Positions 34,140 through 54,394 of a stretch of 64,000 nt of DNA are shown here, piece by piece. The stretch spans positions 1 to 64,000 of the forward strand of contig JAFSVH010000063.1 in NCBI GenBank assembly GCA_017450215.1. The letters run 5' to 3'. The stretch's first letter is position 1. Every line of letters begins with the position of its first letter. Source of the DNA: Bacilli bacterium (GTDB taxonomy: Bacteria; Bacillota_I; Bacilli_A; ML615J-28; CAG-698). A program made the position numbers and the translations under genes. The notes beneath the pieces were generated by a model. It was given only the letters and a program-made list of their open reading frames with translations, made no database searches and was not told where the DNA came from.

Positions 34140-35264
34140 TTATTTTCTCCATATTATTTTATTAATTATACCAGTATAACTTTGTATTATTTTCACAACT
34201 TTAGTACTTACATTGTTATCGTCATAAGCAGGTACAATAACTCCATTATCACCATTCTTATGCATTTCAACTGCTAAATCTACAGCTTGTAATACTTGTT
34301 CAGTTGTAATTGATCCAATTACAAATACACCTTTATCCATAGCTTCTGGTCTTTCAGTAGATGTTCTAACTGAAACTGCAGGAAACTTAAAGTATGCACC
34401 TTCTTCTGGAATTGTTCCACTATCACTTACTACACAAAAAGCATTTTGTTGAAGCTTATTATAATCAAAGAAACCTAATGGTTGATGTTGAATTACTCTT
34501 CTATCAAACTTAAAGTTTCTTGCTTCAATAAACTTCTTACTTCTTGGATGACAAGAATATAATATAGGCATATCATATTTTTCAGCCATTGCATTTACAG
34601 CATTCATTAAACTAAAGAAATTTGCTTCATTATCAATATTTTCTTCTCTATGAGCAGATAATAAAATATATCCATTTTTCTTTAAGCCTAATGTTTCTAA
34701 TACATTTGATTTATTAATATTATCAATACAATCATCTAATACTTCTTTCATTGGTGAACCAACAACAAATGTATATTCAGGTTTCACACCACTATCAAGA
34801 ATATATCTTCTTGCATGTTCAGAATAACACAAATTAACATCTGATGTTACATCAACTATTCTTCTAATTACTTCTTCAGGTAAATTTTCATCTTTACATC
34901 TATTACCAGCTTCCATATGAAAAACAGGAATATGAAGTCTTTTAGCAGATAATACACATAAACAAGAATTTGTATCTCCCAATACAATGATTGCATCAGG
35001 TTTAACTTCACTAAATAATTTATATGATTTAGCAATAACATTACCCATTGTTTCACCTAAATCATTTCCAACTACAACTAAATAATAATCTGGTTCTCTT
35101 AAACCTAAATCTTTAAAAAACACTTCATTTAATTGGTAATCATAGTTTTGACCAGTATGAACTAAAATATGATCAAAATACTTATCACATTTTTTAATGA
35201 TTGCTGACATCTTAATTATTTCAGGTCTTGTACCAACTATTGTCATTAATTTTAGTTTATTCAT
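34140..35264 (-). CDS. UDP-GlcNAc 2-epimerase-like, CapG/FnlC/WbjD group
   Basis: The 374-residue protein has TIVGTRPEIIKMSAI at the start, HTGQNYD, GDTNSCL, HMEAGNRC, PEEVIRR, SAHREENI and SDSGTIPEE, all hallmarks of non-hydrolysing UDP-GlcNAc 2-epimerases. Directly downstream of CapE- and CapF-like genes it should act on their deoxy product to give UDP-L-FucNAc or UDP-L-QuiNAc rather than ManNAc. The ATG at 35264 has GGAGG 8 nt upstream; the ATG at 35279 overlaps that site. It is the last gene of the polysaccharide locus. Confidence 0.9.
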   Translation of the reverse strand: MNKLKLMTIVGTRPEIIKMSAIIKKCDKYFDHILVHTGQNYDYQLNEVFFKDLGLREPDYYLVVVGNDLGETMGNVIAKSYKLFSEVKPDAIIVLGDTNSCLCVLSAKRLHIPVFHMEAGNRCKDENLPEEVIRRIVDVTSDVNLCYSEHARRYILDSGVKPEYTFVVGSPMKEVLDDCIDNINKSNVLETLGLKKNGYILLSAHREENIDNEANFFSLMNAVNAMAEKYDMPILYSCHPRSKKFIEARNFKFDRRVIQHQPLGFFDYNKLQQNAFCVVSDSGTIPEEGAYFKFPAVSVRTSTERPEAMDKGVFVIGSITTEQVLQAVDLAVEMHKNGDNGVIVPAYDDNNVSTKVVKIIQSYTGIINKIIWRK

Positions 35265-35295
35265 TAAACAATCCTCCATTATTATTTAGATTGCA

Positions 35296-36150
35296 TTATA
35301 AATGGTAATGTGGATATAAATCTTTATGATTCTTGATCCATTCAGCCATTTCTTTTACCATTGTTTCATAATCAGGAATTAAATAATCAAATTCAAATTT
35401 AGTTCTTTTTAATGATTTATCAGCATTAACTCCTTCAACAGGATTAATTTGAATTCTATCATTTCTTAAATATTTGTTGAAAAGTTTTAACAAATCATAT
35501 TTAGAAATTGATTTATTTGGGACAGTATTATATAAACCATGTGCTCTTCTCAATGCAGCTTGCTCCATTGTTTTAGCAAGTTGGAGTGTTGTTTGTCCTG
35601 TCCACATTGCTTTAGTATAACCATTAATTGGTCCCTCTTGCTTTAAAAACCAATTTAATAATCCAATTCCATTTGGATTTATGTCAGGTCCAACAATTGA
35701 ATTTCTTAAAGTAATATTCTTATTATCATTTAATTCTCCAAGTGCTTTACTTCTATCATAAAAAGTTGTTCCATCTTGGAAATCATCTTCTGTATATTCT
35801 CCTCTTTTTCCACTAAATACACAATCAGTAGACATATGAATAACTTGTATATTAGTGTCCTTTGTTATTTCAGCAAGATAATGAGGAAAATATGAATTTA
35901 AATATGTTGCTAAAGCCTTATTATCTTCAGCTGCTTGATTTAATATTCCAATGCAATTTATAACAGTATCATAATTACCTGATAAAACAATTCTTTTAAC
36001 ATATTCTTTATCACAAGCATCGCCAGCCTCAGAATCAATTAATTCTGATTTTCTTCTATCAAAGCCATAAACATAATGTCCTTGTTCTTTTAGATATAAA
36101 GAAATCATATGACCAGCCATACCACAACAGCCACAAATTAAAAATCGCAT
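35296..36150 (-). CDS. RmlD-like SDR reductase, CapF/WbvR type
   Basis: The 284-residue extended SDR has CGCCGMAGHMISLYL as the nucleotide loop, HMSTDCVFSGKRG and FYDRSKALGE (YxxxK as YDRSK). It resembles dTDP-4-dehydrorhamnose reductase but sits between CapE and CapG homologs and lacks the C-terminal cupin of staphylococcal CapF. It likely reduces the 4-keto intermediate of UDP-L-FucNAc/QuiNAc synthesis. The start is 1 bp after the CapE stop, with GGAGAAG provided by the last CapE codons. Confidence 0.85.
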   Translation of the reverse strand: MRFLICGCCGMAGHMISLYLKEQGHYVYGFDRRKSELIDSEAGDACDKEYVKRIVLSGNYDTVINCIGILNQAAEDNKALATYLNSYFPHYLAEITKDTNIQVIHMSTDCVFSGKRGEYTEDDFQDGTTFYDRSKALGELNDNKNITLRNSIVGPDINPNGIGLLNWFLKQEGPINGYTKAMWTGQTTLQLAKTMEQAALRRAHGLYNTVPNKSISKYDLLKLFNKYLRNDRIQINPVEGVNADKSLKRTKFEFDYLIPDYETMVKEMAEWIKNHKDLYPHYHL

Positions 36151-36151
36151 A

Positions 36152-37192
36152 TTACTTCTCCATTTTAGAAAGTTCTTCTTGAATATAATCAAGACTTAAT
36201 AATTTCTCTTTAACTTCTTCTTTATTCAATAATCTAGTATTATTTGAGTTAAACTCAGTTAATACATTTCTCTTCTCATCACCAATGGTAAAATACTTAT
36301 CATAATTAAGTCCACGATTGTCAGCAGGTACACGATAGAACTTACCCATATCTACTGCTTTTGCACACTCTTCATTAGTAAGTAATGTCTCATACATCTT
36401 TTCACCATGTCTAATTCCGATAACCCGAATATCTTCTTTCTTTCCACCAAACAATTCACATACAGCTTCTGCTTGTGTTTGAATTGTACATGCTGGTGCT
36501 TTTTGAATTAATAAATCACCATTTTCACCATGTTCCATAGCAAACATTACTAAGTCAACTGCTTCTTCTAATGACATAATAAATCTAGTCATTTCACCAC
36601 TTGTAATAGTAATAGGATTGCCAGCTTTGATTTGATCAATCCAAAGTGGAATAACAGAACCACGAGAGCACATAACATTACCATATCTAGTACAACAGAT
36701 CTTGGTATTTCTAGATTCTCTAGACTTAGCAATAGCAACACTCTCTTCTAATGCTTTAGATTTTCCCATTGCATTAATTGGATAAGCAGCTTTATCTGTT
36801 GATAAACAGATGACAGCTTTAACTCCTGCTTCAATAGCAGCAGTTAAAACATTATCAGTACCAATGATATTAGTTCTTACTGCTTCCATTGGGAAGAACT
36901 CACATGATGGAACTTGTTTCAATGCTGCAGCATGAAAGATATAATCTACATCATGCATTGCACTTCTGCAAGATTCTAAAGACCTAACATCACCAATATA
37001 GAATTTTACCTTTTCTGATTCGTTAGGGTATTTAACTTGCAATTCATGACGTAAATCATCCTGCTTCTTCTCATCGCGAGAAAAAACTCTAATCTCTTTT
37101 ATATCTGTTGTAATAAATCGATTAAGAACAGTAGATCCAAAAGAGCCTGTTCCCCCTGTAATCATTAAATTTTTTTCTTTGAAAAACGACAT
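36152..37192 (-). CDS. UDP-GlcNAc 4,6-dehydratase/5-epimerase, CapE/FnlA type
   Basis: The 346-residue soluble SDR has MITGGTGSFGSTVL, VFSRDEKKQDDLR, FHAAALKQVPSCEF, LSTDKAAYPINAMGKSK and IRHGEKMYE. The DEKKQ and CEFFPMEAVRTN phrases mark the CapE/WbjB/FnlA branch that starts UDP-L-FucNAc synthesis from UDP-GlcNAc. GAGG precedes ATG at 37192; the frame extends upstream only to a TTG. It is the first of a tight three-gene set with its own upstream gap of 367 bp. Confidence 0.92.
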   Translation of the reverse strand: MSFFKEKNLMITGGTGSFGSTVLNRFITTDIKEIRVFSRDEKKQDDLRHELQVKYPNESEKVKFYIGDVRSLESCRSAMHDVDYIFHAAALKQVPSCEFFPMEAVRTNIIGTDNVLTAAIEAGVKAVICLSTDKAAYPINAMGKSKALEESVAIAKSRESRNTKICCTRYGNVMCSRGSVIPLWIDQIKAGNPITITSGEMTRFIMSLEEAVDLVMFAMEHGENGDLLIQKAPACTIQTQAEAVCELFGGKKEDIRVIGIRHGEKMYETLLTNEECAKAVDMGKFYRVPADNRGLNYDKYFTIGDEKRNVLTEFNSNNTRLLNKEEVKEKLLSLDYIQEELSKMEK

Positions 37193-37559
37193 ACAAATAC
37201 CTCGCAAATTAATATATTGAAAAAGGAAACAAAAATAACAATATTTTCAATTAATTATGCATTTAATTATAATCCATTTCACATTACTTGATTCATGTTT
37301 GATTTGTTTATTCATATAGAACAAATGAACCAAATAATTGTATTAAAAGTTTTATAAGAAAATCGACATTTTGTTTTTTTCACCTTTTAAAATAATAATT
37401 TAAATCTAAATCAGTTAGTAATCATTAATAATAAATGATTGATTTTATTTAAATAATTTAATAAGTTTTTTTATTTAATTCTTCTACTCGTTTAAAAACT
37501 TTTTCACACTCAACTATTCTTTACTAAGCTGTTTTTATATCATTCATTAATTAAAGCAG
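37193..37559. other. 367-bp gap before capE-like gene
   Basis: The gap holds a possible minus-strand -10 (TATAAT at 37266-37271 read in reverse) without a good -35 and an AATCATT / AATGATT hairpin (37420-37440). A short minus-strand frame that reads VECEKVFKRVEELNKK before a stop near 37450 could be a relic of a gene end. I see no intact gene. Confidence 0.4.
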
Positions 37560-37982
37560 CTATTTTTTTCCGATTTTTTCTCTCAGTATCGTGCTACTTA
37601 TTCCATCTGTGTGGGGTAGATAAACAACCTCACAACCAATTTTTGCTAGTTCAATTTCAATCTTATTCCATTTTTCTGTTCCTTGCCAATCAGAACCAAC
37701 AAACATAACATTTATCCCATATTCCATCACTGTCGATATTTTTCCTTCTATATCATATCTTTCTTGTGGTATTGCTTTATCTACGTATTTTATTGACTCT
37801 ACAATAGCGATTCGTTCATCGAATGGAATGATTGGTGTTTTATGCTTGTTTTTTTCAACAACTGCATCTGTTGAAACTCCAACAATCAAATAATCACATT
37901 GCTTTTTAGCACGCATAATAACATTCAAATGTCCAATATGAAACATATCATAAACACCTGATGTATACCCTATTTTTTTCAT
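37560..37982 (-). CDS. TagD-like glycerol-3-phosphate cytidylyltransferase
   Basis: The 140-residue protein has the nucleotidyltransferase motif HIGHLN (HxGH), YLIVGVSTD, PFDERIAIVESIKYVD, VGSDWQG and VVYLPHTDGISSTILREKI, matching TagD. It would make CDP-glycerol from glycerol-3-phosphate, the donor for the TagF-like protein at 45874. It sits 13 bp after gmhA, so an alternative heptose-phosphate nucleotidyltransferase role is conceivable, but the GISST ending favours TagD. Confidence 0.82.
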   Translation of the reverse strand: MKKIGYTSGVYDMFHIGHLNVIMRAKKQCDYLIVGVSTDAVVEKNKHKTPIIPFDERIAIVESIKYVDKAIPQERYDIEGKISTVMEYGINVMFVGSDWQGTEKWNKIEIELAKIGCEVVYLPHTDGISSTILREKIGKK

Positions 37983-37995
37983 AATTCTCCTTTTT

Positions 37996-38646
37996 TTAAT
38001 AGAAAAAACAATCTTCCAACATTAAACACAAGCAATGATAAATTGGAAGATGATATTCCTGAACCATATAAGTTTCGTTAGAAGGCGCTTTTATTGATAT
38101 ATCAGCTATTGACATTAATTCACCACCTTTTTGCCCAGTAAGACCTATAACTTTTAAATCTAATGCATGTGCAACAATAGCGGCATTTATTATATTTTTT
38201 GAATTACCAGAAGTTGATATCCCCAATAAAACATCTCCTTTCTTACCATAACCATAAACTTGCTGAGCAAATGTCAATATTCCTCCATTTTGGACATCAT
38301 TTGTATAAGCAGTAGTTAGAGCTTGATGTCCATCTAAAGCAATGGCAGGCAAACCACCTTGCAACTTCTCAGAAAGTTCCTTTCCACGAATAGGATCAAT
38401 ACTTATTAACTTGCTAGCAAATTCTTTAGAGCATTTTCTTTGAAGTTTAAATCCTTTCATCAATTCTCCAACGATATGCTCAGCATCAGCACAACTCCCA
38501 CCATTACCAGCAATCAAAAGTTTATGACCTGCTGAAAAACACTCTTTTAAAATATAAAACGCTTCAATAATGGAATCCTTGCATTCCAACAAAGCAGGAT
38601 ATCTTTCGATTAATAAATCTATATGTTTTTGCATTTTTTCATCCAT
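37996..38646 (-). CDS. gmhA: Phosphoheptose isomerase
   Basis: The 216-residue SIS-domain protein has AGNGGSCADAEHIVGELMKGF at residues 46 onward, LTTAYTNDVQNGG, GISTSGNSKNIINA and a metal-site C-terminus (EYHLPIYHCLC), as in GmhA. It converts sedoheptulose-7-phosphate to D-glycero-D-manno-heptose-7-phosphate. It carries a loop (about 80-105) longer than E. coli GmhA. It lies 3 bp from the HddC-GmhB fusion. Confidence 0.93.
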   Translation of the reverse strand: MDEKMQKHIDLLIERYPALLECKDSIIEAFYILKECFSAGHKLLIAGNGGSCADAEHIVGELMKGFKLQRKCSKEFASKLISIDPIRGKELSEKLQGGLPAIALDGHQALTTAYTNDVQNGGILTFAQQVYGYGKKGDVLLGISTSGNSKNIINAAIVAHALDLKVIGLTGQKGGELMSIADISIKAPSNETYMVQEYHLPIYHCLCLMLEDCFFY

Positions 38647-38649
38647 ATT

Positions 38650-39912
38650 TTAATTTTCACTCAATATACTATTTACTGCATCTAGCAAATTGACTCCTTT
38701 CACTAATTTAATAGATTTACAACCAGCATTATTGCCAGCCATAATATCATTATCACCATCACCAATAATCCACGATTTAGACAAATCAATATTAAAATCT
38801 TTTGCTGCCTTAAGAAGCATACCAGGTTTTGGCTTTCTACACTCACACTCAATTTTTAGTTCAATTATTTCTCCATCATATCCTTTATTAGGGTGATGTG
38901 GGCAATAATACAAGCCATCAATATATGCACCATTTTTTCCAAGAAGTGTTTCCATTTTATTATGAATCTCATCAAGTTCAGAAAAAGAAACTTCTCCACG
39001 CGCTATGACAGGCTGATTTGTCACAACAATTGCAAGATAACTAGAATAATTAATTTTTTTAATTGCTTCAGTTACACCATCTATCAATTCAAATTGATCT
39101 ATACTTTTTAAAAAACCCACATATTTGTTTATCGTTCCATCTCTATCAAGAAAAATAGCTTTTTGCTTATTTCTGAAATTCTTACTATCAATAAGTCCGT
39201 TTTCACAATCTCTACAAACGGCATAATACCTATCAGGAGTGCCCATATCTTTAACATATTCTGGAGAATCATAAACAAACATTTTTCCAGAGCTAGCCAA
39301 TGGTTTTAAAATTTGGCGATCTAAATCAATCTTAGGTGTGTTAACGATTGTTTCTAAAACTCTTTTATTTATAACATGAAGTCCAGCATTAACTCTATTT
39401 TTATACCACATAGGCCTATCATCTTCTTTTGCAAGCCACTTTATCACAGACTTATCATCATCACAAATTAGAAGTCCACTATCAAAAGGATGGGAATTTG
39501 GATGTGTAAATAACGTAACCAAACCGCCCTTTTTTTTGTGATAGTTTATAAATCTATTAAAATCTATATTGAATAATGAGTCAGCATTCAAAAGAAGAAA
39601 ATCATCAGTCAACTTTTCTTTAATCTTGAATAGCGCTCCTGCATTTCCAAGAGGTTCTTCTTCAACAAAGTATTCAATACTTACTCCAAACTCACTACCA
39701 TCTTTAAAATAATCAATGATAACACTAGACATATGACTTACTGTTATAAGAATATCTGTAAATCCTTGATCTCTCAAGCACTCAATTTCATGTTGAAGAA
39801 CAGGTTTTCCACATATCGGAATCATTGGCTTTGGAATGTCACTAGCAATTGAAGTAATCCTAGTTCCTTTCCCACCTGCCATTATTACAGTTTTAATAAT
39901 ATTCACCTCCAT
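38650..39912 (-). CDS. Fused heptose-1-phosphate guanylyltransferase / heptose bisphosphate phosphatase (HddC-GmhB)
   Basis: The N-terminal half (to about 235) is a sugar-nucleotidyltransferase with VIMAGGKGTR, DIPKPMIPICGKP, LLNADSLF and NAGLHVIN. The C-terminal half (from about 250) is a GmhB-type HAD: KAIFLDRDGTINKYVG, VVTNQPVIARGE, CPHHPNKGY with CECRKPKPGM (zinc Cys/His) and GDGDNDIMAGNNAGC. Together they would take heptose-1,7-bisphosphate to heptose-1-phosphate and on to GDP-heptose. The start is unclear: the ATG at 39912 overlaps the only good ribosome site (GGAGGT), which is best spaced to an ATT at 39900 or 39897. Confidence 0.88.
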   Translation of the reverse strand: MEVNIIKTVIMAGGKGTRITSIASDIPKPMIPICGKPVLQHEIECLRDQGFTDILITVSHMSSVIIDYFKDGSEFGVSIEYFVEEEPLGNAGALFKIKEKLTDDFLLLNADSLFNIDFNRFINYHKKKGGLVTLFTHPNSHPFDSGLLICDDDKSVIKWLAKEDDRPMWYKNRVNAGLHVINKRVLETIVNTPKIDLDRQILKPLASSGKMFVYDSPEYVKDMGTPDRYYAVCRDCENGLIDSKNFRNKQKAIFLDRDGTINKYVGFLKSIDQFELIDGVTEAIKKINYSSYLAIVVTNQPVIARGEVSFSELDEIHNKMETLLGKNGAYIDGLYYCPHHPNKGYDGEIIELKIECECRKPKPGMLLKAAKDFNIDLSKSWIIGDGDNDIMAGNNAGCKSIKLVKGVNLLDAVNSILSEN

Positions 39913-39937
39913 AAATAACATTCATGACATTTATAAA

Positions 39938-40297
39938 TCAAGATGTCCAAATATCCTTCATAGTATCACTAAGTTCCACACCATCGCTATACATAGAAAT
40001 AAGTAAAGTATCTTCTATGTATTCAAAAGTATGAAAAGTATTAGGACCGATAGAAAAAAACATACCTGGTTTAATATTATAACTCTCATGTACTTGATCC
40101 TTCCAAACGGTCAATATAAAACTACCGTTAACAACGTAAAAAGCCTCTGAATTGAATTTATGATAGTGATTTCCACGAATAAAACCAGCCTTTGATTCAA
40201 TTACATTTATTTGTTTCCACCCATCATGCACTAATTGGACAAGACTTCCTCGCTCATTTTTGAGTTCAAAATCAACTGTTAAAAAAGTTACTAACAT
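39938..40297 (-). CDS. Cupin-fold nucleotide-sugar isomerase/epimerase-like protein
   Basis: The 119-residue single-domain cupin has GNHYHKFNSEAFYVVNGSF (metal/active-site histidines) and IGPNTFHTFEY. Such proteins occur as WxcM/FdtA-type 3,4-ketoisomerases or as 3,5-epimerases in deoxysugar loci. Next to a GDP-sugar 4,6-dehydratase and a reductase, it probably rearranges the 4-keto-6-deoxy-heptose intermediate. The exact reaction cannot be read from sequence. It lies 4 bp from the dehydratase gene. Confidence 0.7.
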   Translation of the reverse strand: MLVTFLTVDFELKNERGSLVQLVHDGWKQINVIESKAGFIRGNHYHKFNSEAFYVVNGSFILTVWKDQVHESYNIKPGMFFSIGPNTFHTFEYIEDTLLISMYSDGVELSDTMKDIWTS

Positions 40298-40301
40298 TTT
40301 A

Positions 40302-41339
40302 TTACCTAGTTAAAAAAACTTTTCCATTTGAGACTCTTTTTCTCCAGTAATTAAGCAAGTCTTCCATGGTTTTTTCAAATGAAATATTTGGTTCCCAGCC
40401 TGTATGTTCTTTAAACTTTCTACAATCAGGAACTTGCAAATCCGCATCAATTGGTCTTAATCTTTCTGGATCAACCTCAATCTTAATTAGATCCTTCATA
40501 GTCGACATATTTATAAGAGTTTGCAGAGTGTCACCAACTTCACAAGTATATGAACCACCAATATTATAGTATTCCCCTGGAATTGGATTGCATGTAACCA
40601 ACATATAATATGCTCTAACTGCATCTCTTACATCAGCATATGTTCTTAATGATTTTAAATTACCAACTTTAACAATCGGTGGAATCATTCCAGCTTCAAT
40701 CATTGCAATTTGTTTTGCAAATGTAGATTCATGGAATACATCCCCCCTTCTTGGTCCAGTATGAGTAAACATTCTAGTCGTCATAACAGTCATACCATAT
40801 GCTTCCGCATAATAACGTCCTAAAAGGTCTGTGCCTACTTTAGAAATTGCGTATGGCGAAGCTGGATGAAATGGACATTCTTCATGAATTCCAGTATCTG
40901 GTTTTTTTTCAGCAGGAATCTTCCCAAATACTTCCGAAGAAGCGCACACATGTACAATAGGTTTATAATTTTTATCATCATCCATTTCAAGACGAATAGC
41001 TTCAAGAAGGCGGCAAGTTCCAAGAACATTTGTATTTAGCGTATCAATCGGAGAATCAAAACTTGTTAAAGGATAACTTTGAGCAGCTAAATGAAAAATA
41101 TAATCAGGTTTAACTTTTTTTATTACATGAATTAAGGATACTTGATCATTCAAATCAGCATAATCAAAGAACACTCTATCACGCTTATTAACTCTTTCAA
41201 GTAAATGTTCTACATTATCCAGTGGACTTCTCCATCTGCAAACACCATATACATCCCAATTTGTGTTTTCAAGTAAAAAATCACAAAGGTGTGAACCTAC
41301 CATCCCTGTAATACCAGTAATCAAGGCTTTTTTATTCAT
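40302..41339 (-). CDS. GDP-mannose/GDP-heptose 4,6-dehydratase
   Basis: The 345-residue SDR has ITGITGMVGSHLCDFL, DLNDQVSL, HLAAQSYPLTSFDSP, CASSEVFG and SPYAISK with YxxxK. This is the Gmd family (DmhA/WcbK in heptose loci). In this operon the substrate is most likely GDP-D-glycero-D-manno-heptose. ATG 41339 is used because AAGGAGG lies 9 nt upstream. It overlaps the hddA 3' end by 8 bp. Confidence 0.88.
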   Translation of the reverse strand: MNKKALITGITGMVGSHLCDFLLENTNWDVYGVCRWRSPLDNVEHLLERVNKRDRVFFDYADLNDQVSLIHVIKKVKPDYIFHLAAQSYPLTSFDSPIDTLNTNVLGTCRLLEAIRLEMDDDKNYKPIVHVCASSEVFGKIPAEKKPDTGIHEECPFHPASPYAISKVGTDLLGRYYAEAYGMTVMTTRMFTHTGPRRGDVFHESTFAKQIAMIEAGMIPPIVKVGNLKSLRTYADVRDAVRAYYMLVTCNPIPGEYYNIGGSYTCEVGDTLQTLINMSTMKDLIKIEVDPERLRPIDADLQVPDCRKFKEHTGWEPNISFEKTMEDLLNYWRKRVSNGKVFLTR

Positions 41340-42351
41340 ACTTGTTTTCCTCCTTATATGTATGATATTCTTCAGGGGCATAATATACAACTTCAGTCCC
41401 TGATTCTTCAAATTTAAACGGAATATATAAACAATCAGATAAAGCTTTCTTTACATCATCTTGCTTATCTAATGGAACATAAAACAATAGAAATCCTCCT
41501 CCACCAGCTCCTAACAATTTTCCTCCTAATGCGCCACTTTCAATAGCCATAAGATACATCTCATCTATCTTTCCATTTGAAATAGTAGGTCCAGTAGACT
41601 TTTTTAATTCCCATGCATGATTAAGTAGTTTCCCAAATTCATCTAAGCTTGTTTCTTTGTTAACAAGAATACTTTCTGCTTTATATACAAGTGATTTCAT
41701 TTCTAAAAGTTGCTGCACTTTGTTTTCAATATTTTTAGATGTTTCAGTTTGAATTTCAGAAGAAAATCTAGAAAAACCCGTGAAAAATAACATTAATCTA
41801 TCATTCAATTCCTTTTTTCGGTTGGGTTCAATTATTAAAGGTCTAACAGTAAATGAGTTGTTGCTAAACTCTATTACATTAAAACCTCCATATGAAGCTG
41901 CAATCTGATCTTGCCATCCACCTTTTTCTTTACATATATCGCGTTCCAAATGAATAGCATCTTCTGCTAATTTCTTTTTACTCGCATATTTACCCTTTAA
42001 AGAATAAAAAGCACTTAGCATTCCAACTGCAAATGAACTACTTGTTCCTAAGCCCGTTCTTGCAGGCAAATCTGCATCATAAGTAATAATCAATTCTTCC
42101 ATATTGAGCATTTTCATGGCCTCTCGAACTGCAGGATGCTCAATCTGCTCAACTTCTTTCACACGTTCAATTTTAGAGTATGTAATTTGATTTTTGTAAT
42201 CAAAAAATCTTGGTAAATGTCTGACATTTACATAACAATACTTATCAAAGGTTGTTGACAAAACTGCACCACCATATTTATTAAAAAAATCAAGCATATC
42301 AGTTCCGCCACCAAAAAACGACATTCTAAAAGGGGTTCTTGTAATAATCAT
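41332..42351 (-). CDS. hddA: D-glycero-D-manno-heptose-7-phosphate kinase
   Basis: The 339-residue GHMP kinase starts RTPFRMSFFGGGTDM, has ARTGLGTSSSFAVGMLSAFY as the ATP loop, and KLLGAGGGGFLLFYVP near the C-terminus. The FFGGGTD start and length match HddA, which phosphorylates heptose-7-phosphate at C1 in the alpha (GDP) branch. Neighbours GmhA and HddC-GmhB complete the same route. Confidence 0.92.
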   Translation of the reverse strand: MIITRTPFRMSFFGGGTDMLDFFNKYGGAVLSTTFDKYCYVNVRHLPRFFDYKNQITYSKIERVKEVEQIEHPAVREAMKMLNMEELIITYDADLPARTGLGTSSSFAVGMLSAFYSLKGKYASKKKLAEDAIHLERDICKEKGGWQDQIAASYGGFNVIEFSNNSFTVRPLIIEPNRKKELNDRLMLFFTGFSRFSSEIQTETSKNIENKVQQLLEMKSLVYKAESILVNKETSLDEFGKLLNHAWELKKSTGPTISNGKIDEMYLMAIESGALGGKLLGAGGGGFLLFYVPLDKQDDVKKALSDCLYIPFKFEESGTEVVYYAPEEYHTYKEENKYE

Positions 42352-42363
42352 TTTCTCACTTCC

Positions 42364-43251
42364 TTACTTAAAAATAGGCTTTTCAAAAATATCAATATTA
42401 GAAACGCCAAGAATTTCTTTTAATAAACTATTATCCATTAATGTACTATCAGCACGCTTTGTTACGAAGTTTTTTTGAGTTTTATTAATACTTACAGGAA
42501 TAATTAGGCTTTTATCAAGTCCTTCAATTTCCGCAATTTTTAAAGCAACATCATATTTTGAAAGATCCGAATCTCCACATATATTTACAATACTAGAAGT
42601 ATTGCCTTTTTCAATCAATTGAACCAAAAGATATGATGCATTATCAAAACTTAATGAAGACCTATATGAATCTTTAAACATTTCAATCAAATTACCACTT
42701 TTTACAGTTTCTACGATTTCATCGTAAAAATGTTTTTTTCCAGCCAAACTAGGAGAAATCAAAAACGGAAATCTTACAACATTTCTTCCTCTATGAACAA
42801 CTATTGCTTCAGCAACGCACTTATTATGTCCATAAAAATTAACTGGATTAAGAGAATCACCCTCTTTAAAATGGTAGTTATTGATGCTATTACCATACAC
42901 ACTATCAGTTGATGCATAATAAAGGCACGTTGCAAAATCAACTTTATTAATAAATTTTGATAGACAAGTAACATTAATATTCCATGCTAAGGTTTTGTTC
43001 TTTTCAACATCATCAGGTCTATGATAAGCAGCAAGATAAATAATTTTCAAATTATTCTTATCGACGATTGAAAGCAAAGCATCGACAGATTCATCATCGG
43101 TTATATTGCACTCAACCCAAGTAATTCTATTTGTATTACGACAGTTTTTAACTCCTATACCAGCCCCAACAATGATGTCATTTGTATTGTCCAAAATATT
43201 TTTTATTAAATAACTTCCTAAAAAGCCATTTGCACCTACAATCAAATACAT
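42364..43251 (-). CDS. NAD-dependent epimerase/reductase, RmlD-like
   Basis: The 295-residue SDR begins MYLIVGANGFLGSYLIK and has YLAAYHRPDDVEKN, YYASTDSVYG and NFYGHNKCVAE (catalytic Tyr-Lys as YGHNK). It has the length of 4-keto reductases. In the operon it would be the last step making a GDP-6-deoxy-heptose after dehydratase and cupin. It ends 12 bp before hddA. Confidence 0.8.
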   Translation of the reverse strand: MYLIVGANGFLGSYLIKNILDNTNDIIVGAGIGVKNCRNTNRITWVECNITDDESVDALLSIVDKNNLKIIYLAAYHRPDDVEKNKTLAWNINVTCLSKFINKVDFATCLYYASTDSVYGNSINNYHFKEGDSLNPVNFYGHNKCVAEAIVVHRGRNVVRFPFLISPSLAGKKHFYDEIVETVKSGNLIEMFKDSYRSSLSFDNASYLLVQLIEKGNTSSIVNICGDSDLSKYDVALKIAEIEGLDKSLIIPVSINKTQKNFVTKRADSTLMDNSLLKEILGVSNIDIFEKPIFK

Positions 43252-43269: not shown

Positions 43270-44297
43270 TTAATAATCTTTTTTTTCAAAAAGAATTTTT
43301 ATTTTAGTTTTCATAATAAGCTTCCCAACCCCATATAGCAATAAAATTGACATTAGATCAACCATTACAAGTTGCAACATTTCTATTTTTTCACCAAATA
43401 TGGCATTAATAAGATATCTAATAGAATCAATAACCGGATGATTTATGCAAACATAAATTACCGACATTTCTCCAATTTTTCTCAACATTCTAATAACTTC
43501 CAAATCTTTACCAACCTCAGAAAGTTTGGTTTATATTATAATTACCAAAAAAGATGCTATTAATGCATTCACTATTCCTAACGGTATAAATCCCCATTGC
43601 ATCAATCTCATGTTTACTTTAGTATTAAAAAATATTAAAGCCACAACAATACATGATAATAATAAAATGAAAACATAATATTTACGCTTCAAATTATTAA
43701 TAAGATTCATAAAGTTAATTTCATTTGCCATCCTTCCAATATGATAAAACAACAATGCCACTAAAGAAACATCAATACCAAAGGGTATCTTAAAAAGCGT
43801 AAAAAATGTTGAAAGAAAACCTAAAGTACATAAAACAATTATTATCGCAGAAACAATAATCTTATTGTTCTTTGATATTACATTAATAAAATAGTAAACA
43901 ATAGAAGTAATAAACATGACAGGTAAGAACCACAATGCACTTTTAATCACTATTCCTTCATTTGGAAATAGCAAAAAAAGTTTTTAGTGTCTGTATCCAA
44001 GCACTCGGCCTTAACATAAAAGAATTATTCAAATTGTATATTAAATAATATACCGCCCCCATAAAAAATATGGGATAAGCAAAGCTTTTATTATTGTCAC
44101 AACAATAGTTCGAGTATTCTTAGTTTTATAAAAAAACCTGAAATTATAAAGAATAGTGGCATATGAAAAGCGTAGATTAAATGATTTATAACTAATTCAC
44201 TAATATGAACATGACCTAAAATCATCAATAAAATACCAATACCCTCTGCAATGTCCATTCCAATATTTCTATATTTAGCAATTAAATGGTCATTCAT
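43270..44297 (-). pseudogene. Acyltransferase-3 family gene, broken
   Basis: Fragments in different frames read in order: GMDIAEGIGILLMILGHVHI and YAFHMPLFFIISGFFIK (44297-44097); ALLIPYF and YYLIYNLNNSFMLRPSAWI; LLFPNEGIVIKSALWFLPV (43974-43531); an in-frame TAA; then EVGKDLEVIRMLRKIGEMSV (to 43270). The helices and the first-helix His match OafA/YrhL-type O-acyltransferases. At least two frameshifts and one nonsense codon show that polysaccharide O-acetylation from this gene is lost. Confidence 0.8.
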
Positions 44298-44335
44298 AGA
44301 AACTCTCCTATAATTTAGTTTAATATTCGTTATAA

Positions 44336-45796
44336 TTATTTTTTAGAAACTTTTCTAATACTCAGTATTTCTTTAATTGTTCCGAAAATACTTTTATAAA
44401 ATACCAAAACAACAATCAAAAAAACACCAGTTAAAACATATCTCATTATATTATTAGAATAAGTGATTAAATATAGAAAGCCAATGCCTAAAAACGAAAG
44501 AGTAACTAATAACAACACTTTAGAATTATAAGGACATTCTCCATCTAAATGTTTTTTGCAAACATATTTCATAGCAAAGAAATGGAAAAGTGCATAAAGT
44601 ATATAGCAAAACAAGGTTGTGTATGCTGCTGCAATATAACCGAATAATTTTATAAAGATAAAATTTGTGACAATATTAATAGCGGCACCGACAAATGTAG
44701 CAGCAGCAATCAGTTTTGTCTTTTCATAATAAAACTCAAATTTTGCAAATAGATCATAACAAAATAGAAAATATACACTCATTGCTATAGGTGGAATACA
44801 CCAAATAGCATCATAATATTCCTTTGGTGCGAACAACCTAACTGCCTCGGGTGCGAAAGCTATTAAAATAATATTCACACCAGCAACAATCATCAAAGTA
44901 GCATAAGCAATTCTAGAAATATCTTTAATTTTATTATCCCTAATTTTTGTATAAATCCACGGAGTAAGAACATCAGCTAAAGCGACATTAAATAAAATCA
45001 TAATTTGTGCCAACGCGTAAGCAAGGCTATAAATTCCAGCACTACTTTTATCAACCATTCTTTCGATCATAATCCTATCAGAACTATTTAGAATTGTTTG
45101 TGACAAATAATGAGGTAAAAGTGGAATATTAAATAAAAGGGCATGCTTCCAAAATTTTTTAGAAAATAACTTTTTTCCCTTTATTATATGAATTATAAAC
45201 ATCCAAGAAAAACCAACAAGTTGAGCAATAACCAAACCAAGAATACGTGCGGTGACCTTATCATCTGAATGGATAATGAAAAATATACTTATTAATGGTT
45301 GAAAAATCGCAAAAAGAAGCGTTACAATAACCAGCGTTCGATATTTATATTCAACTCGTTGCTCTCCAGCCCATAAATTAAACACAACATTTGTCCAAAT
45401 CAAGATAAGCATAGCAAACATTTGTACTGTCGTTAAAGAAAACAAATCATTCCAAAATGAACTAGAGCAAATATAGACAATTGTCCAGCCAAAACATAAA
45501 ACAAACGTTAGTCCTTGAATAGACGAAATAAAAACCTTTCTTTCAAATTCAAACTTTACAAGGCCTCTTTGGTAAACGCCACCAAATAAGTTTAGTGTAA
45601 CAATAATGCTAACTATACTCATCCACGAATTAAACACGTTAAAACTTCCATACTCATCAGTTGATAAAAGTCGAGTAAAAATTGGAGTAGTGATCAATGC
45701 CACACCCCTTTGAAGAAATGAGCACATCAAGAACCAAAATGAAGCTTTTACTTGAACAGAAAGAGAAGAATACCATTGTTTAATTCTACTTATCAT
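44336..45796 (-). CDS. Oligosaccharide-unit flippase, Wzx type
   Basis: The 486-residue integral membrane protein has 12-14 hydrophobic helices and the family start (FLQRGVALITTPIFTRLL, then STDEYGSFNVFNSW). It would move lipid-linked repeat units across the membrane for Wzy polymerisation. It is placed in the middle of the locus, 77 bp from the TagF-like gene. The following gene is the broken acyltransferase. Confidence 0.9.
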   Translation of the reverse strand: MISRIKQWYSSLSVQVKASFWFLMCSFLQRGVALITTPIFTRLLSTDEYGSFNVFNSWMSIVSIIVTLNLFGGVYQRGLVKFEFERKVFISSIQGLTFVLCFGWTIVYICSSSFWNDLFSLTTVQMFAMLILIWTNVVFNLWAGEQRVEYKYRTLVIVTLLFAIFQPLISIFFIIHSDDKVTARILGLVIAQLVGFSWMFIIHIIKGKKLFSKKFWKHALLFNIPLLPHYLSQTILNSSDRIMIERMVDKSSAGIYSLAYALAQIMILFNVALADVLTPWIYTKIRDNKIKDISRIAYATLMIVAGVNIILIAFAPEAVRLFAPKEYYDAIWCIPPIAMSVYFLFCYDLFAKFEFYYEKTKLIAAATFVGAAINIVTNFIFIKLFGYIAAAYTTLFCYILYALFHFFAMKYVCKKHLDGECPYNSKVLLLVTLSFLGIGFLYLITYSNNIMRYVLTGVFLIVVLVFYKSIFGTIKEILSIRKVSKK

Positions 45797-45873: not shown

Positions 45874-47064
45874 TCATAAATCATACTTTTCTTTCATATA
45901 GTTATATAATCTATCACCACTTTTAAAATCAACATAATGATTAAAAGTGTATTTTGCTTCCTTTTGTTCATCAGATACATATCCTGAATCTACTTGATCT
46001 ATAAACTTTAAAAAGTCCTCAACTTTATATATGTATGTTCCTTTAATATTTCCTTCAAAAGTTGTATCTTTATAATTGTCAAAAGAAAATCCAGTTTTAT
46101 TACGATATACAACGATATCATCGCAAGTTAGGCCAATAGGTTTATCGGTCAATAAATAGTCAAAATATACTGATGAGTAATCTGAAAGCATTCCATCCGT
46201 TTCACCCAAAATATCATACAATTGGACATTCTTTTGAGCCATCTCAGGACTAGTAATAACTTTAATATTACTTAAGTCATCAACATTAAAACAACTCATA
46301 TCTTGCGAAGGATGAGGTTTAATAATAATAATAACTTTTTTCTCTTTTAAGTGATTATTAACAACTTTCATATCTTCTGGAGTTTTAATTATCGGTAGTC
46401 CGTAAAAAGAACCATCGAATGCAATAGCATTCATACTAGTATGATCTTTACGTTGTCTAAAAGTAGGTAACCAAATAATTATTTTTTCATCAGGTCTAGC
46501 ATAACCATTACTTCTTAAAAAGCCAACATTTGATTTTAATTGATCATTCCTAACTAATCCAAAAGTGGTGAATTTAGCAGGATCAAGTCCATATTCCATG
46601 AAAAAAGGAGCAAACCAATCACTTTGAATTTCAATCCCATCATAACCTTTAAAAGGATCAAAATATGTATCAATGCGTTTTATTGGTGTACCATGATGCA
46701 AATACATTCGAACTTGTTTTTTTCGCCTTTTATTAACAAAAACACATCCATCAAAGATAAATTTAACCGTGAAAATTACATAGTATTTCTTTATGAATTC
46801 AATTGGATTTTTAGGATCTAAATAAATCAATTTAATGTTCCAGCCATTTGGAGCCTTTGTTATGGTGTGATCTTTTACAATCCAATATAATTTATATTTA
46901 TTTTCAATCCCCTTTTTTTCAAGATAATTGCACCACCAGTACACATTATCTGTAAAATCAGGAAATGATTCAAATAAAATTGCATTTCTTAATGGAAATA
47001 TTCTAAATATATTAACTAAAATATTTCTAAAAAATCTTAAAATATTTTTAATTATTTTTTTCAT
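45874..47064 (-). CDS. CDP-glycerol glycerophosphotransferase (TagB/TagF-like)
   Basis: The 396-residue protein has YLHHGTPIKRID, WLPTFRQ, IIKPHPSQDM and MLSDYSSVYFDYLLTDKPI, the core of the Glyphos_transf family. It transfers glycerol-phosphate from CDP-glycerol to an acceptor and is membrane-associated. With the TagD-like gene at 37560 in the same locus, the polymer probably carries phosphoglycerol side groups. There is no chain of polymerase repeats, so it may add single units rather than a teichoic chain. Confidence 0.9.
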   Translation of the reverse strand: MKKIIKNILRFFRNILVNIFRIFPLRNAILFESFPDFTDNVYWWCNYLEKKGIENKYKLYWIVKDHTITKAPNGWNIKLIYLDPKNPIEFIKKYYVIFTVKFIFDGCVFVNKRRKKQVRMYLHHGTPIKRIDTYFDPFKGYDGIEIQSDWFAPFFMEYGLDPAKFTTFGLVRNDQLKSNVGFLRSNGYARPDEKIIIWLPTFRQRKDHTSMNAIAFDGSFYGLPIIKTPEDMKVVNNHLKEKKVIIIIKPHPSQDMSCFNVDDLSNIKVITSPEMAQKNVQLYDILGETDGMLSDYSSVYFDYLLTDKPIGLTCDDIVVYRNKTGFSFDNYKDTTFEGNIKGTYIYKVEDFLKFIDQVDSGYVSDEQKEAKYTFNHYVDFKSGDRLYNYMKEKYDL

Positions 47065-51991: not shown

Positions 51992-53128
51992 TTACTTAAA
52001 CTCCTCCCAATGTTCAAATAAAACTTTAAATGGCTCAGGATCATATTCATCATAAAAGTATGTACCTTTAGCTTGTTTAAACTCTAAAAGCCATTGAGCC
52101 AAACTGATTTTTCCACTATCTACTCTTTTACCGAAATCAATAACCTCAGACATATCAGTAAAAGGTATAAAGTTTTTCTTATCTTTTTTATCTATCTTTC
52201 CATTAAGGGTTGATTTAACCCACAAATATGAAAGTGGCATTCCAGCAATAGATCCAGTATGATTCCATGCAGATGCCCTAAAATTAGTTTCTAAAAAATA
52301 GTAAGAACCATCTTGATCTATCAAAAATTCAACTTCAAATATTCCTTCAAATCCAATTTCCTCAAACATTTTTTGAAGTTTTTCTCCCATATCTTTATTC
52401 TCAAAAGGAATTACATCGTGATATGGAGAATAGTAACCTTCGATAAGATATTTCCAAGTTAATGATGTTACTATCATCATTTCTTTTCCTTGATTTATAC
52501 AAAATCCCTCTAAAGCGTATTCATTTTTTTTATTAACAAAACGTTGTATTAAAACCTGTGGACTTGTAATTACTTCATATGCTTTTTTTAATTCTTCTTC
52601 ATTATTACAAATAAAAACATCTGATTTCCAAGACCCAGAATTAGGTGAAATATCTTTTGTAATTATTGGATAAACTAAATTCACAGGAATCTCACCTTTA
52701 TTCACGACATATGAGTCAAGGACATTAAACCCATATTTTTTAGCAATATCCAATATTTTCTTTTTATCCATAAATTCATTAATTCTACCTGTTTTTCCAG
52801 CATTGTAACAAATGAATTTATCTTTAATTTCATCATAATGAAGATCAAAATATCCAACTGATTTGTCATCTGAAAACAAAACGATTGGTCTATGTTCATA
52901 ATCAAAATGACCATATTCCTTCAATAATAATCTATAACCCTCTTCAACAGAATTAGCACGGTATAATTTCGAAATATATTTACTATATGTTGCAACTTCT
53001 TGTCTTCGTTTAATAGAAAAATATACTGGATAAATTCCATTTTCACCTAAACTTCTTATCAATCCAAGTGGGTTATAATGCTCTAAAGCGAAAACTATAA
53101 CAAGGTGATCATTATAATTATTAATCAT
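51992..53128 (-). CDS. ATP-grasp ligase
   Basis: The 378-residue protein has an ATP-grasp middle and end: YPIITKDISPNSGSWKSDVFI, LIQRFVNKKNEYALEGFCI and IFEVEFLIDQDGSYYFLETNFR, with Glu and Asn metal ligands. Such proteins occur in capsule loci and may attach amino acids or modify sugars. The substrate is unknown. ATG 53128 is preceded by AAAGGG and overlaps the sugar-transferase 3' end by 8 bp. Confidence 0.82.
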   Translation of the reverse strand: MINNYNDHLVIVFALEHYNPLGLIRSLGENGIYPVYFSIKRRQEVATYSKYISKLYRANSVEEGYRLLLKEYGHFDYEHRPIVLFSDDKSVGYFDLHYDEIKDKFICYNAGKTGRINEFMDKKKILDIAKKYGFNVLDSYVVNKGEIPVNLVYPIITKDISPNSGSWKSDVFICNNEEELKKAYEVITSPQVLIQRFVNKKNEYALEGFCINQGKEMMIVTSLTWKYLIEGYYSPYHDVIPFENKDMGEKLQKMFEEIGFEGIFEVEFLIDQDGSYYFLETNFRASAWNHTGSIAGMPLSYLWVKSTLNGKIDKKDKKNFIPFTDMSEVIDFGKRVDSGKISLAQWLLEFKQAKGTYFYDEYDPEPFKVLFEHWEEFK

Positions 53129-53723
53129 TTTTGTCGCCCTTTCCTTCTTCCTTATATACATTTTTACCTGTAATAACTGTTTTTACGATTCCAAAAAAAG
53201 TTTTAAAATCAATACTAAATTTCACATTTTGTGCATATTCTGAATCCATTTTAAATTGAATATCTCTGGATGCAGTTGCACGATAATCCAAATCAACTGT
53301 GCAAAACATTCCAGGACGAACATCGAATCTAGATTCATATTCATCTTTAGCATATTCATTATATTCCCAATCAAGTATTGGTCTTGGGCCAATAATAGCC
53401 ATTTGTCCTAATAATATATTTATCAACTGAGGAAATTCATCAATACTTGTTTTTCTTAAAAACTTTCCAACTTTTGTAATTCTACTATCATTTTCACTGC
53501 TAGCTATTCCACCTTTTTCATAAGCATGGTTGCACATAGTTCGAAACTTGAATATTGTAAATATCTTTTTATTTTTCCCTATTCTTTTTTGTTTAAATAT
53601 AGCAGGTCCCTTACTATCACATTTTATAATAATTCCTATAGCAATCATAGGTAGTAGCAAAATAGACAAAGCAATAAAAGAAAGTACAAAATCTATTAGT
53701 CTTTTAAAAAAATGTTTATACAT
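53121..53723 (-). CDS. Initiating sugar-phosphate transferase, PglC/WcaJ-catalytic type
   Basis: The 200-residue protein has one N-terminal membrane segment (about 8-32), then FKQKRIGKNKKIFTIFKFRTM, SRITKVGKFLRKTSIDEFPQL and GQMAIIGPRPI, the conserved catalytic core of bacterial phosphoglycosyl transferases. It loads sugar-1-phosphate onto undecaprenyl phosphate to start each repeat unit. The start (ATG 53723) shares a base with the deacetylase stop as TAATG, with GTGAGG upstream. Confidence 0.92.
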   Translation of the reverse strand: MYKHFFKRLIDFVLSFIALSILLLPMIAIGIIIKCDSKGPAIFKQKRIGKNKKIFTIFKFRTMCNHAYEKGGIASSENDSRITKVGKFLRKTSIDEFPQLINILLGQMAIIGPRPILDWEYNEYAKDEYESRFDVRPGMFCTVDLDYRATASRDIQFKMDSEYAQNVKFSIDFKTFFGIVKTVITGKNVYKEEGKGDKND

Positions 53724-54394
53724 TAGTTCCTCACAAATACACATTCAAAAGCTTCAGCATAATTACATCCTGATTGACCACCTCTATATGCAGCTAATCC
53801 TTCAATTACTTCTTTGCTTCTTGGATGTGGATAAGGTCTCATAACACCTTTGTATTTATTTAAAGCATCAATCTTAACATTCAATCCATCTTTACGAATC
53901 TCAACAAAATAATTAGCATTGAATTTATTTGATGCAGGTTCGAAACTCCACTCTGTTGAAGACATAATTTCCATAAATAACACAAGTTTTAATGCAGGAA
54001 CGCCTGGTTTTCTTTGTGCTATTCTTGATGCTGCTTGAGCAGCATAAGATGTTTGAACATGATCATTATTAGTATCACTAGGATGATGCGTAATAATTGC
54101 TTCAGCACCAAAATCTTCAATACAGCCCTCAATAAACTTAACTAAATCTAGATGAGGAACTGTATTCATCTTAATGTTTGGAAAATTAGCAGCATAAGAT
54201 TTGCTAACACCCATTATTTTAAATGCTTCTTCTTGATCACTAGCTAAAGTATCTGAAATATTGGCACGTGCAGCAGCATGATTTGCCATAGTTGCTACAG
54301 CAACCTCATCACCTTGATCAACTAATTTACGAATTGTTGCGCCAGCGCCTAACACTTCATCATCAGGATGAGCAACTACTATTAAATATTTCAT
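53723..54394 (-). CDS. PIG-L family deacetylase
   Basis: The 223-residue protein has VVAHPDDEVLGAGATI (zinc motif HPDDE) near the start and ITHHPSDTNNDHVQTS (HxxxDxNxDH) later, as in PIG-L/LmbE N-acetyl-sugar deacetylases. It probably deacetylates a GlcNAc-type lipid or nucleotide sugar for the polymer. AGGGAG lies 9 nt before the ATG at 54394. It appears to be the first gene of the 54-37 kb polysaccharide operon. Confidence 0.9.
   Translation of the reverse strand: MKYLIVVAHPDDEVLGAGATIRKLVDQGDEVAVATMANHAAARANISDTLASDQEEAFKIMGVSKSYAANFPNIKMNTVPHLDLVKFIEGCIEDFGAEAIITHHPSDTNNDHVQTSYAAQAASRIAQRKPGVPALKLVLFMEIMSSTEWSFEPASNKFNANYFVEIRKDGLNVKIDALNKYKGVMRPYPHPRSKEVIEGLAAYRGGQSGCNYAEAFECVFVRN

Follow-up and report, generated by a model that had tools for sequence, protein, structure and literature searches.

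In a stretch of 64,000 nucleotides from a Bacilli bacterium (assembly GCA_017450215.1, contig JAFSVH010000063.1, positions 1 to 64,000; hereafter the window), six close-packed minus-strand genes running from 43251 down to 37996 probably direct the synthesis of a guanosine diphosphate (GDP)-6-deoxy-heptose for a Wzx/Wzy-type surface polysaccharide, with a cupin acting as epimerase, an RmlD-like enzyme acting as reductase, and the whole cassette acquired horizontally. An earlier note on this DNA had placed six such genes between these positions, and all of them were found there on the minus strand, separated by 3–16 bases or overlapping by a few bases. Their order along that strand is as follows, with a TagD-like gene beginning 13 bases after the last of them:

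42364–43251, minus strand: RmlD-type short-chain dehydrogenase/reductase (SDR), predicted C4-keto reductase of a nucleotide sugar, 295 aa (RmlD_sub_bind, 90 bits; AlphaFold 2 model)
41332–42351, minus strand: HddA, predicted heptose-7-phosphate kinase (HddA model, 148.6 bits; WcbL heptokinase 4usm, E 8e-45)
40302–41339, minus strand: predicted GDP-heptose 4,6-dehydratase, 345 aa (7us5, E 2e-112; catalytic residues; tree)
39938–40297, minus strand: CapF-type metal cupin, 119 aa, predicted to epimerise the 4-keto intermediate at C3 (or C3/C5) (PF14667, 35.8 bits)
38650–39921, minus strand, start approximate: HddC-GmhB fusion (NTP_transferase, 111 bits; GmhB, 170 bits)
37996–38646, minus strand: GmhA, predicted sedoheptulose-7-phosphate isomerase (GmhA models, 132.5–134.8 bits; PDB phosphoheptose isomerases)

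In the proposed pathway, GmhA would isomerise sedoheptulose-7-phosphate, HddA would phosphorylate the product at C1, the GmhB domain of the fused protein would remove the C7 phosphate, and the 4,6-dehydratase would yield GDP-6-deoxy-4-keto-heptose. The ketosugar would then be epimerised by the cupin, most likely at C3, and reduced at C4 by the RmlD-like enzyme to a 6-deoxy-heptose such as the altro or ido form. The predicted route as far as the 4-keto intermediate is well supported by the families to which the proteins belong, by the conservation of their catalytic residues, and by the conserved linkage of the genes.

Predicted enzymes leading to the 4-keto intermediate

Among solved structures, the dehydratase is closest to 7us5, the GDP-heptose 4,6-dehydratase of C. 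jejuni (379 bits, E 2e-112), compared with 147 bits for the best GDP-mannose 4,6-dehydratase (Gmd), and the window protein is 51–52% identical to the C. jejuni enzyme vs. 29% to Gmd of Escherichia coli. In a tree of 88 sequences, which covered the C. jejuni enzyme and Gmd sequences and did not contain DmhA of Yersinia pseudotuberculosis, the dehydratase family and the C. jejuni enzyme split from the Gmd sequences with 100% support; the C. jejuni enzyme sits on a long branch, and the support concerns this split and not the exact placement inside the family. The SDR motifs TGxxGxxG, SSE136, Y163, and K167 are present, with SSE, Y163, and K167 invariant among the aligned relatives. Judged by these sequence relationships, the dehydratase is a heptose and not a mannose enzyme. 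Strict clustering with GDP-mannose enzymes, which had been named beforehand as the outcome that should overturn the GDP-6-deoxy-heptose reading of the earlier note, occurred neither in the tree nor in the identities, and that reading is upheld by the score against 7us5, the tree, and the linkage to HddA. The start of the gene lies at 41339, within the 3′ end of hddA, the mechanically assigned open reading frame (ORF) start at 41411 being too long.

The enzymes assigned to the preceding steps match their families with E-values of 1e-38 (GmhA), 3e-43 (HddA), 2e-28 (HddC), and 3e-50 (GmhB domain), next to 3e-75 for the dehydratase against GDP_Man_Dehyd. In GmhA, the metal and catalytic residues of the SIS isomerase (H57, E61, Q196, and H199) are invariant in the alignment, and an insert of about 25 residues (71–95) is common to gut relatives and missing from the solved phosphoheptose isomerases. 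The closest solved relative of HddA is the heptokinase WcbL, whose catalytic residues are R13 and D163 (PMC4691232); R9 and D148 of the window protein align with these. The fusion consists of a heptose-1-phosphate guanylyltransferase (HddC, about 1–245) and a heptose-1,7-bisphosphate 7-phosphatase (GmhB, about 250–410), the latter with DRDGT and CPHHP...CECRKPKPG motifs, which include the Cys/His zinc motifs of the GmhB domain. A transketolase gene in the window's genome would provide the pathway substrate.

Gene linkage across genomes

A scan of species-representative genomes yielded 80 dehydratase loci, in which linkage was counted within the fetched flanks. HddA lies near the dehydratase in 64 of these, in 43 of the 48 flanked by 5 kb or more on each side, and in all 12 equally well-flanked loci of a clade at 79–85% identity, the members of which belong to Lachnospiraceae, Erysipelotrichaceae, Solobacterium, Treponema, Succinivibrio dextrinosolvens, a metagenome-assembled genome of Synergistales, and Lachnoanaerobaculum. 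Because the dehydratase so consistently adjoins the heptose kinase, a heptose substrate is strongly indicated. All six window genes are present and adjacent in two further loci (L056 and L059).

The cupin occurs in 11 of the 80 loci, accompanied by the same RmlD-like reductase in seven (Fisher p 3e-6) and by a GDP-fucose-synthase-like reductase in the other four, and a third reductase type is confined to loci without the cupin, 16 in number. An RfbH/ColD-like 3-dehydrase gene is present in three loci (L052, L060, and L061), and three cupin loci carry a UDP-galactopyranose-mutase-like gene (L054, 11127–12386; L068, 7711–8958; L074, 3136–4410), which suggests a furanose form of the deoxyheptose in cassettes of the cupin type. 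The deoxyheptose branches of C. jejuni comprise reduction alone, epimerisation with reduction, 3-deoxygenation, and a mutase step (PMC10680097), and the repetition of these branches in the gene combinations of the loci is the main argument for regarding the cupin as an epimerase.

The cupin and the reductase

PF14667 matches the cupin in 12 of 12 homologs, the window cupin is also matched by Cupin_2, and the cupin profile matches the cupin domain of CapF with an E-value of 1.7e-7. The zinc motif of CapF, KGNHWH...NE, aligns with RGNHYH...SE in the window cupin, which also has the distal His. By contrast with CapF, in which the cupin lies behind an SDR reductase domain, the window cupin is a stand-alone protein. 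The RmlC family PF00908 matches only three of the 12 homologs, with a best E-value of 0.003, and by sequence the window cupin is not of the RmlC type. In CapF, epimerisation of the ketosugar by the cupin requires zinc, and the SDR domain then carries out the reduction (PMC5393024); on this analogy C3 epimerisation with an altro or ido product is our best guess for the window enzymes. In C. jejuni, DdahB and MlghB are cupins 38% identical to RmlC that work with SDR reductases (PMC7949155). The model of the window reductase (pLDDT 83.5) has RmlD as its best fold (Z 26), and GxxGxxG and YxxxK are kept in nine homologs.

Alternative readings

Some observations weigh against the pathway as proposed. 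The NCBIfam equivalog cut-offs are unreached at every step (for HddA, 148.6 bits vs. 600), and the cassette proteins are on this account regarded as divergent members of their families. In addition, the AlphaFold 2 model of the cupin (pLDDT 91.9) has sugar 3,4-ketoisomerases as its closest folds (Z 14–15, the closest at 14.9), followed by DdahB (12.5) and CapF (11.4), and in locus L060 the cupin adjoins a pyridoxal phosphate-dependent 3-dehydrase-like gene of the RfbH/ColD type, so that the epimerase there may act at C5 and not at C3. A cupin that is a 3,4-ketoisomerase of the FdtA/QdtA type would move the keto group to C3, where the reductase would act, giving a differently configured 6-deoxy-heptose; the FdtA Pfam model also matches nine of the 12 homologs weakly. 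As far as predicted models go, the reaction cannot be told from the cupin fold by itself, and fold comparisons separate these cupin functions poorly, but by sequence the nearest matches are PF14667 and the cupin domain of CapF and not FdtA. The 3,4-ketoisomerases known so far supply the substrate of a C3 aminotransferase, but no such partner was found in the cassette: no DegT-type gene was recognised among the ORFs at 34–57 kb, and an RfbH/ColD-like 3-dehydrase query had no match in the window. We consider the ketoisomerase unlikely. It is more doubtful still that the cupin is a detached epimerase half of CapF serving the neighbouring FnlA/FnlB/FnlC genes, with the heptose merely reduced to 6-deoxy-manno-heptose; the cupin resembles that of CapF, and FnlB here is without the cupin domain that CapF carries, but FnlA/FnlB were found near the cupin in none of the 11 other cupin loci, compared with HddA and the dehydratase in all 11.

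A further alternative is that the dehydratase acts on GDP-mannose and the pathway ends in a GDP-6-deoxyhexose, for instance that of rhamnose, talose, or fucose; in its favour, the Pfam and NCBIfam labels of the dehydratase read GDP-mannose dehydratase-like. This is very improbable, as the protein scores 180.7 bits against the GDP-mannose 4,6-dehydratase model TIGR01472 (curated cut-off 415), the tree sets it apart from Gmd, and the linked gene is HddA, with no mannose genes. A GMP_PMI-type mannose-1-phosphate guanylyltransferase also had no match in the window's genome, which is 94% complete, for which reason gene absences from it are not proof. The least probable of the alternatives is that the dehydratase branch is unused. 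An acyltransferase gene (PF01757-like, 43270–44342) directly upstream of the reductase is split by frameshifts into several frames, as a pseudogene or through assembly error, and parts of the operon may therefore be decaying, but the six genes themselves are intact and tightly spaced and keep their catalytic residues. Synthesis of an epimerised GDP-6-deoxy-heptose is thus retained as the probable function of the cassette.

The polysaccharide locus and the origin of the cassette

The cassette is embedded in a larger set of surface polysaccharide genes, of which the following were delimited:

37560–37982, minus strand: TagD-like cytidylyltransferase, probably for CDP-glycerol, same operon (TIGR01518, 96.9 bits, below cut-off)
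34140–37207, minus strand: FnlA, RmlD-like reductase, and FnlC, a separate UDP-N-acetyl-L-fucosamine (L-FucNAc)- or N-acetyl-L-quinovosamine (L-QuiNAc)-type pathway (FnlA, 475 bits; WecB, 220 bits)
44336–45796, minus strand: Wzx-type flippase (PF01943, 69 bits)
45874–47064, minus strand: CDP-glycerol glycerophosphotransferase-like protein (PF04464, 100.7 bits)
53121–53744, minus strand: initiating sugar-phosphate transferase (PF02397, 186 bits)

The heptose set had been said to share an operon with CDP-glycerol genes, and it is indeed flanked on the same strand by the TagD-like and PF04464 genes. The description of the locus as teichoic-type holds in part. Both a putative CDP-glycerol synthase (the TagD-like protein) and a glycerophosphotransferase are present, but the genes upstream in the same direction also encode the flippase, a Wzy-like membrane protein, several glycosyltransferases, and the initiating transferase, and no ABC transporter for TagGH-type export was recognised among the ORFs at 34–57 kb. 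The locus looks like a Wzx/Wzy capsule type decorated with glycerol phosphate. Downstream of the cassette, the gene in the FnlB position (35296–36192) encodes a plain RmlD-like SDR lacking the CapF cupin domain, so that the FnlA/B/C set may yield UDP-L-QuiNAc or N-acetyl-L-rhamnosamine (L-RhaNAc) rather than L-FucNAc.

The dehydratase occurs in one of 392 genomes of the phylum, that of the window itself, and neither it nor HddA had relatives in 59 related genomes. The TagD-like gene is present in 13 of 60 genomes (the window's own counted), with a copy 78% identical in an otherwise different capsule locus of a genome of the same family (G014), and the G+C content is 32–33% over the cassette vs. 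27–29% in most flanking bins. Since the relatives lack the dehydratase and HddA, the TagD-like gene and the flank are native to the family, and the G+C content of the cassette is raised, horizontal import into a native capsule locus is the most likely origin. An empty insertion site was not found, the G014 locus differing apart from its TagD-like gene. Mis-binning of the contig was rejected in view of a flanking aminotransferase 74% identical to that of a same-genus genome. Neither LpxC nor a 16S gene is present in the window's genome, and the host, apparently of gut type, shows no indication of a lipopolysaccharide (LPS) outer membrane.

Comparison with known deoxyheptose systems

The order of the proposed chemistry is that of the Campylobacter pathway, from sedoheptulose-7-phosphate to GDP-heptose, 4,6-dehydration, a cupin-fold epimerase, and an SDR C4 reductase (PMC10680097; PMC7949155). 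The window differs in that its putative epimerase resembles CapF and not RmlC and has a complete metal motif, its reductase is RmlD-like, its HddC and GmhB are fused, and its GmhA has an insert. Staphylococcus aureus CapF (Cap5F) likewise uses a zinc cupin domain with an aligned motif for epimerisation and an SDR reductase partner, but there the cupin is fused and the substrate is a UDP-sugar, whereas the window cupin stands alone with an RmlD-type partner. The combination of heptose and CDP-glycerol genes, implied in the earlier note to be novel, is already found in the C. jejuni HS:44 capsule locus, which has teichoic-like glycerol phosphate and deoxyheptose genes together, although in a Gram-negative host and with two separate capsules reported (PMC7901785). 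The loci of Solobacterium sp. UBA3303 (L056) and Erysipelotrichaceae RGIG2833 (L059) have the six genes adjacent and 53–83% identical, but CDP-glycerol genes were not seen within the fetched flanks and the glycosyltransferases are different. Lachnoanaerobaculum sp. OBRC5-5 (L054) has HddA, the dehydratase (83%), the reductase (48%), the cupin (50%), and GmhA, but the genes are interspersed, the HddC-GmhB fusion is missing, and the mutase-like gene is additional.

The route to GDP-6-deoxy-heptoses is already known, as is a capsule locus in which teichoic-like genes occur together with deoxyheptose genes; what is new is that two enzyme families are replaced and that the distribution in the gut is wide. 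The chances are about even that this constitutes a second, independently assembled route to epimerised GDP-6-deoxy-heptoses, with a stand-alone CapF-type zinc cupin and an RmlD-like reductase replacing the RmlC-type DdahB and its SDR partner. The GDP-deoxyheptose pathway, biochemically characterised mainly in Campylobacter, would thereby extend, in the form of a widespread gut cassette, to Bacillota, Spirochaetota, Succinivibrio, and Synergistota, and a module circulating among gut and oral anaerobes would account genetically for 6-deoxy-heptoses in bacteria that lack LPS. Which deoxyheptose a strain makes would be predictable from whether it carries the cupin, 3-dehydrase, and mutase genes, so that the surface sugars of uncultured gut bacteria could be read from sequence. 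For Lachnoanaerobaculum sp. OBRC5-5, which has both cupin and mutase, the predicted sugar is an epimerised 6-deoxy-heptose, possibly in furanose form, and for Succinivibrio dextrinosolvens DSM 3072, which has no cupin, it is 6-deoxy-manno-heptose. Heptoses occur in Gram-positive S-layers and 6-deoxy-heptoses in antigens of Eubacterium (Lachnoanaerobaculum) saburreum, the polysaccharides of which may be linked to the loci described here. A literature search for previous accounts of deoxyheptose genes in Gram-positive bacteria returned nothing relevant.

Relatives of the dehydratase in viruses and proteobacteria

Relatives of the dehydratase, about 59–70% and mostly 62–70% identical, are also carried by 41 viral contigs (L003–L043), of which 35 have an RfbH/ColD-like 3-dehydrase, 33 the N-half of a split transketolase, and 30 an HldA-like kinase; GmhA and HddC were found on none of the 41. 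The family was considered as a phage dehydratase without heptose genes, and this was rejected in view of the transketolase-, 3-dehydrase-, and HldA-like genes, given which the viral relatives do not argue for GDP-mannose. A dideoxy sugar or a branched one is a possible product of these viruses. Transketolase-like genes 26–31% identical to the viral N-half recur in loci of alpha- and gammaproteobacteria (L098, L105, L108, L113, L120, and others) near the dehydratase and HddA, where a two-carbon branch addition to the ketosugar is possible.

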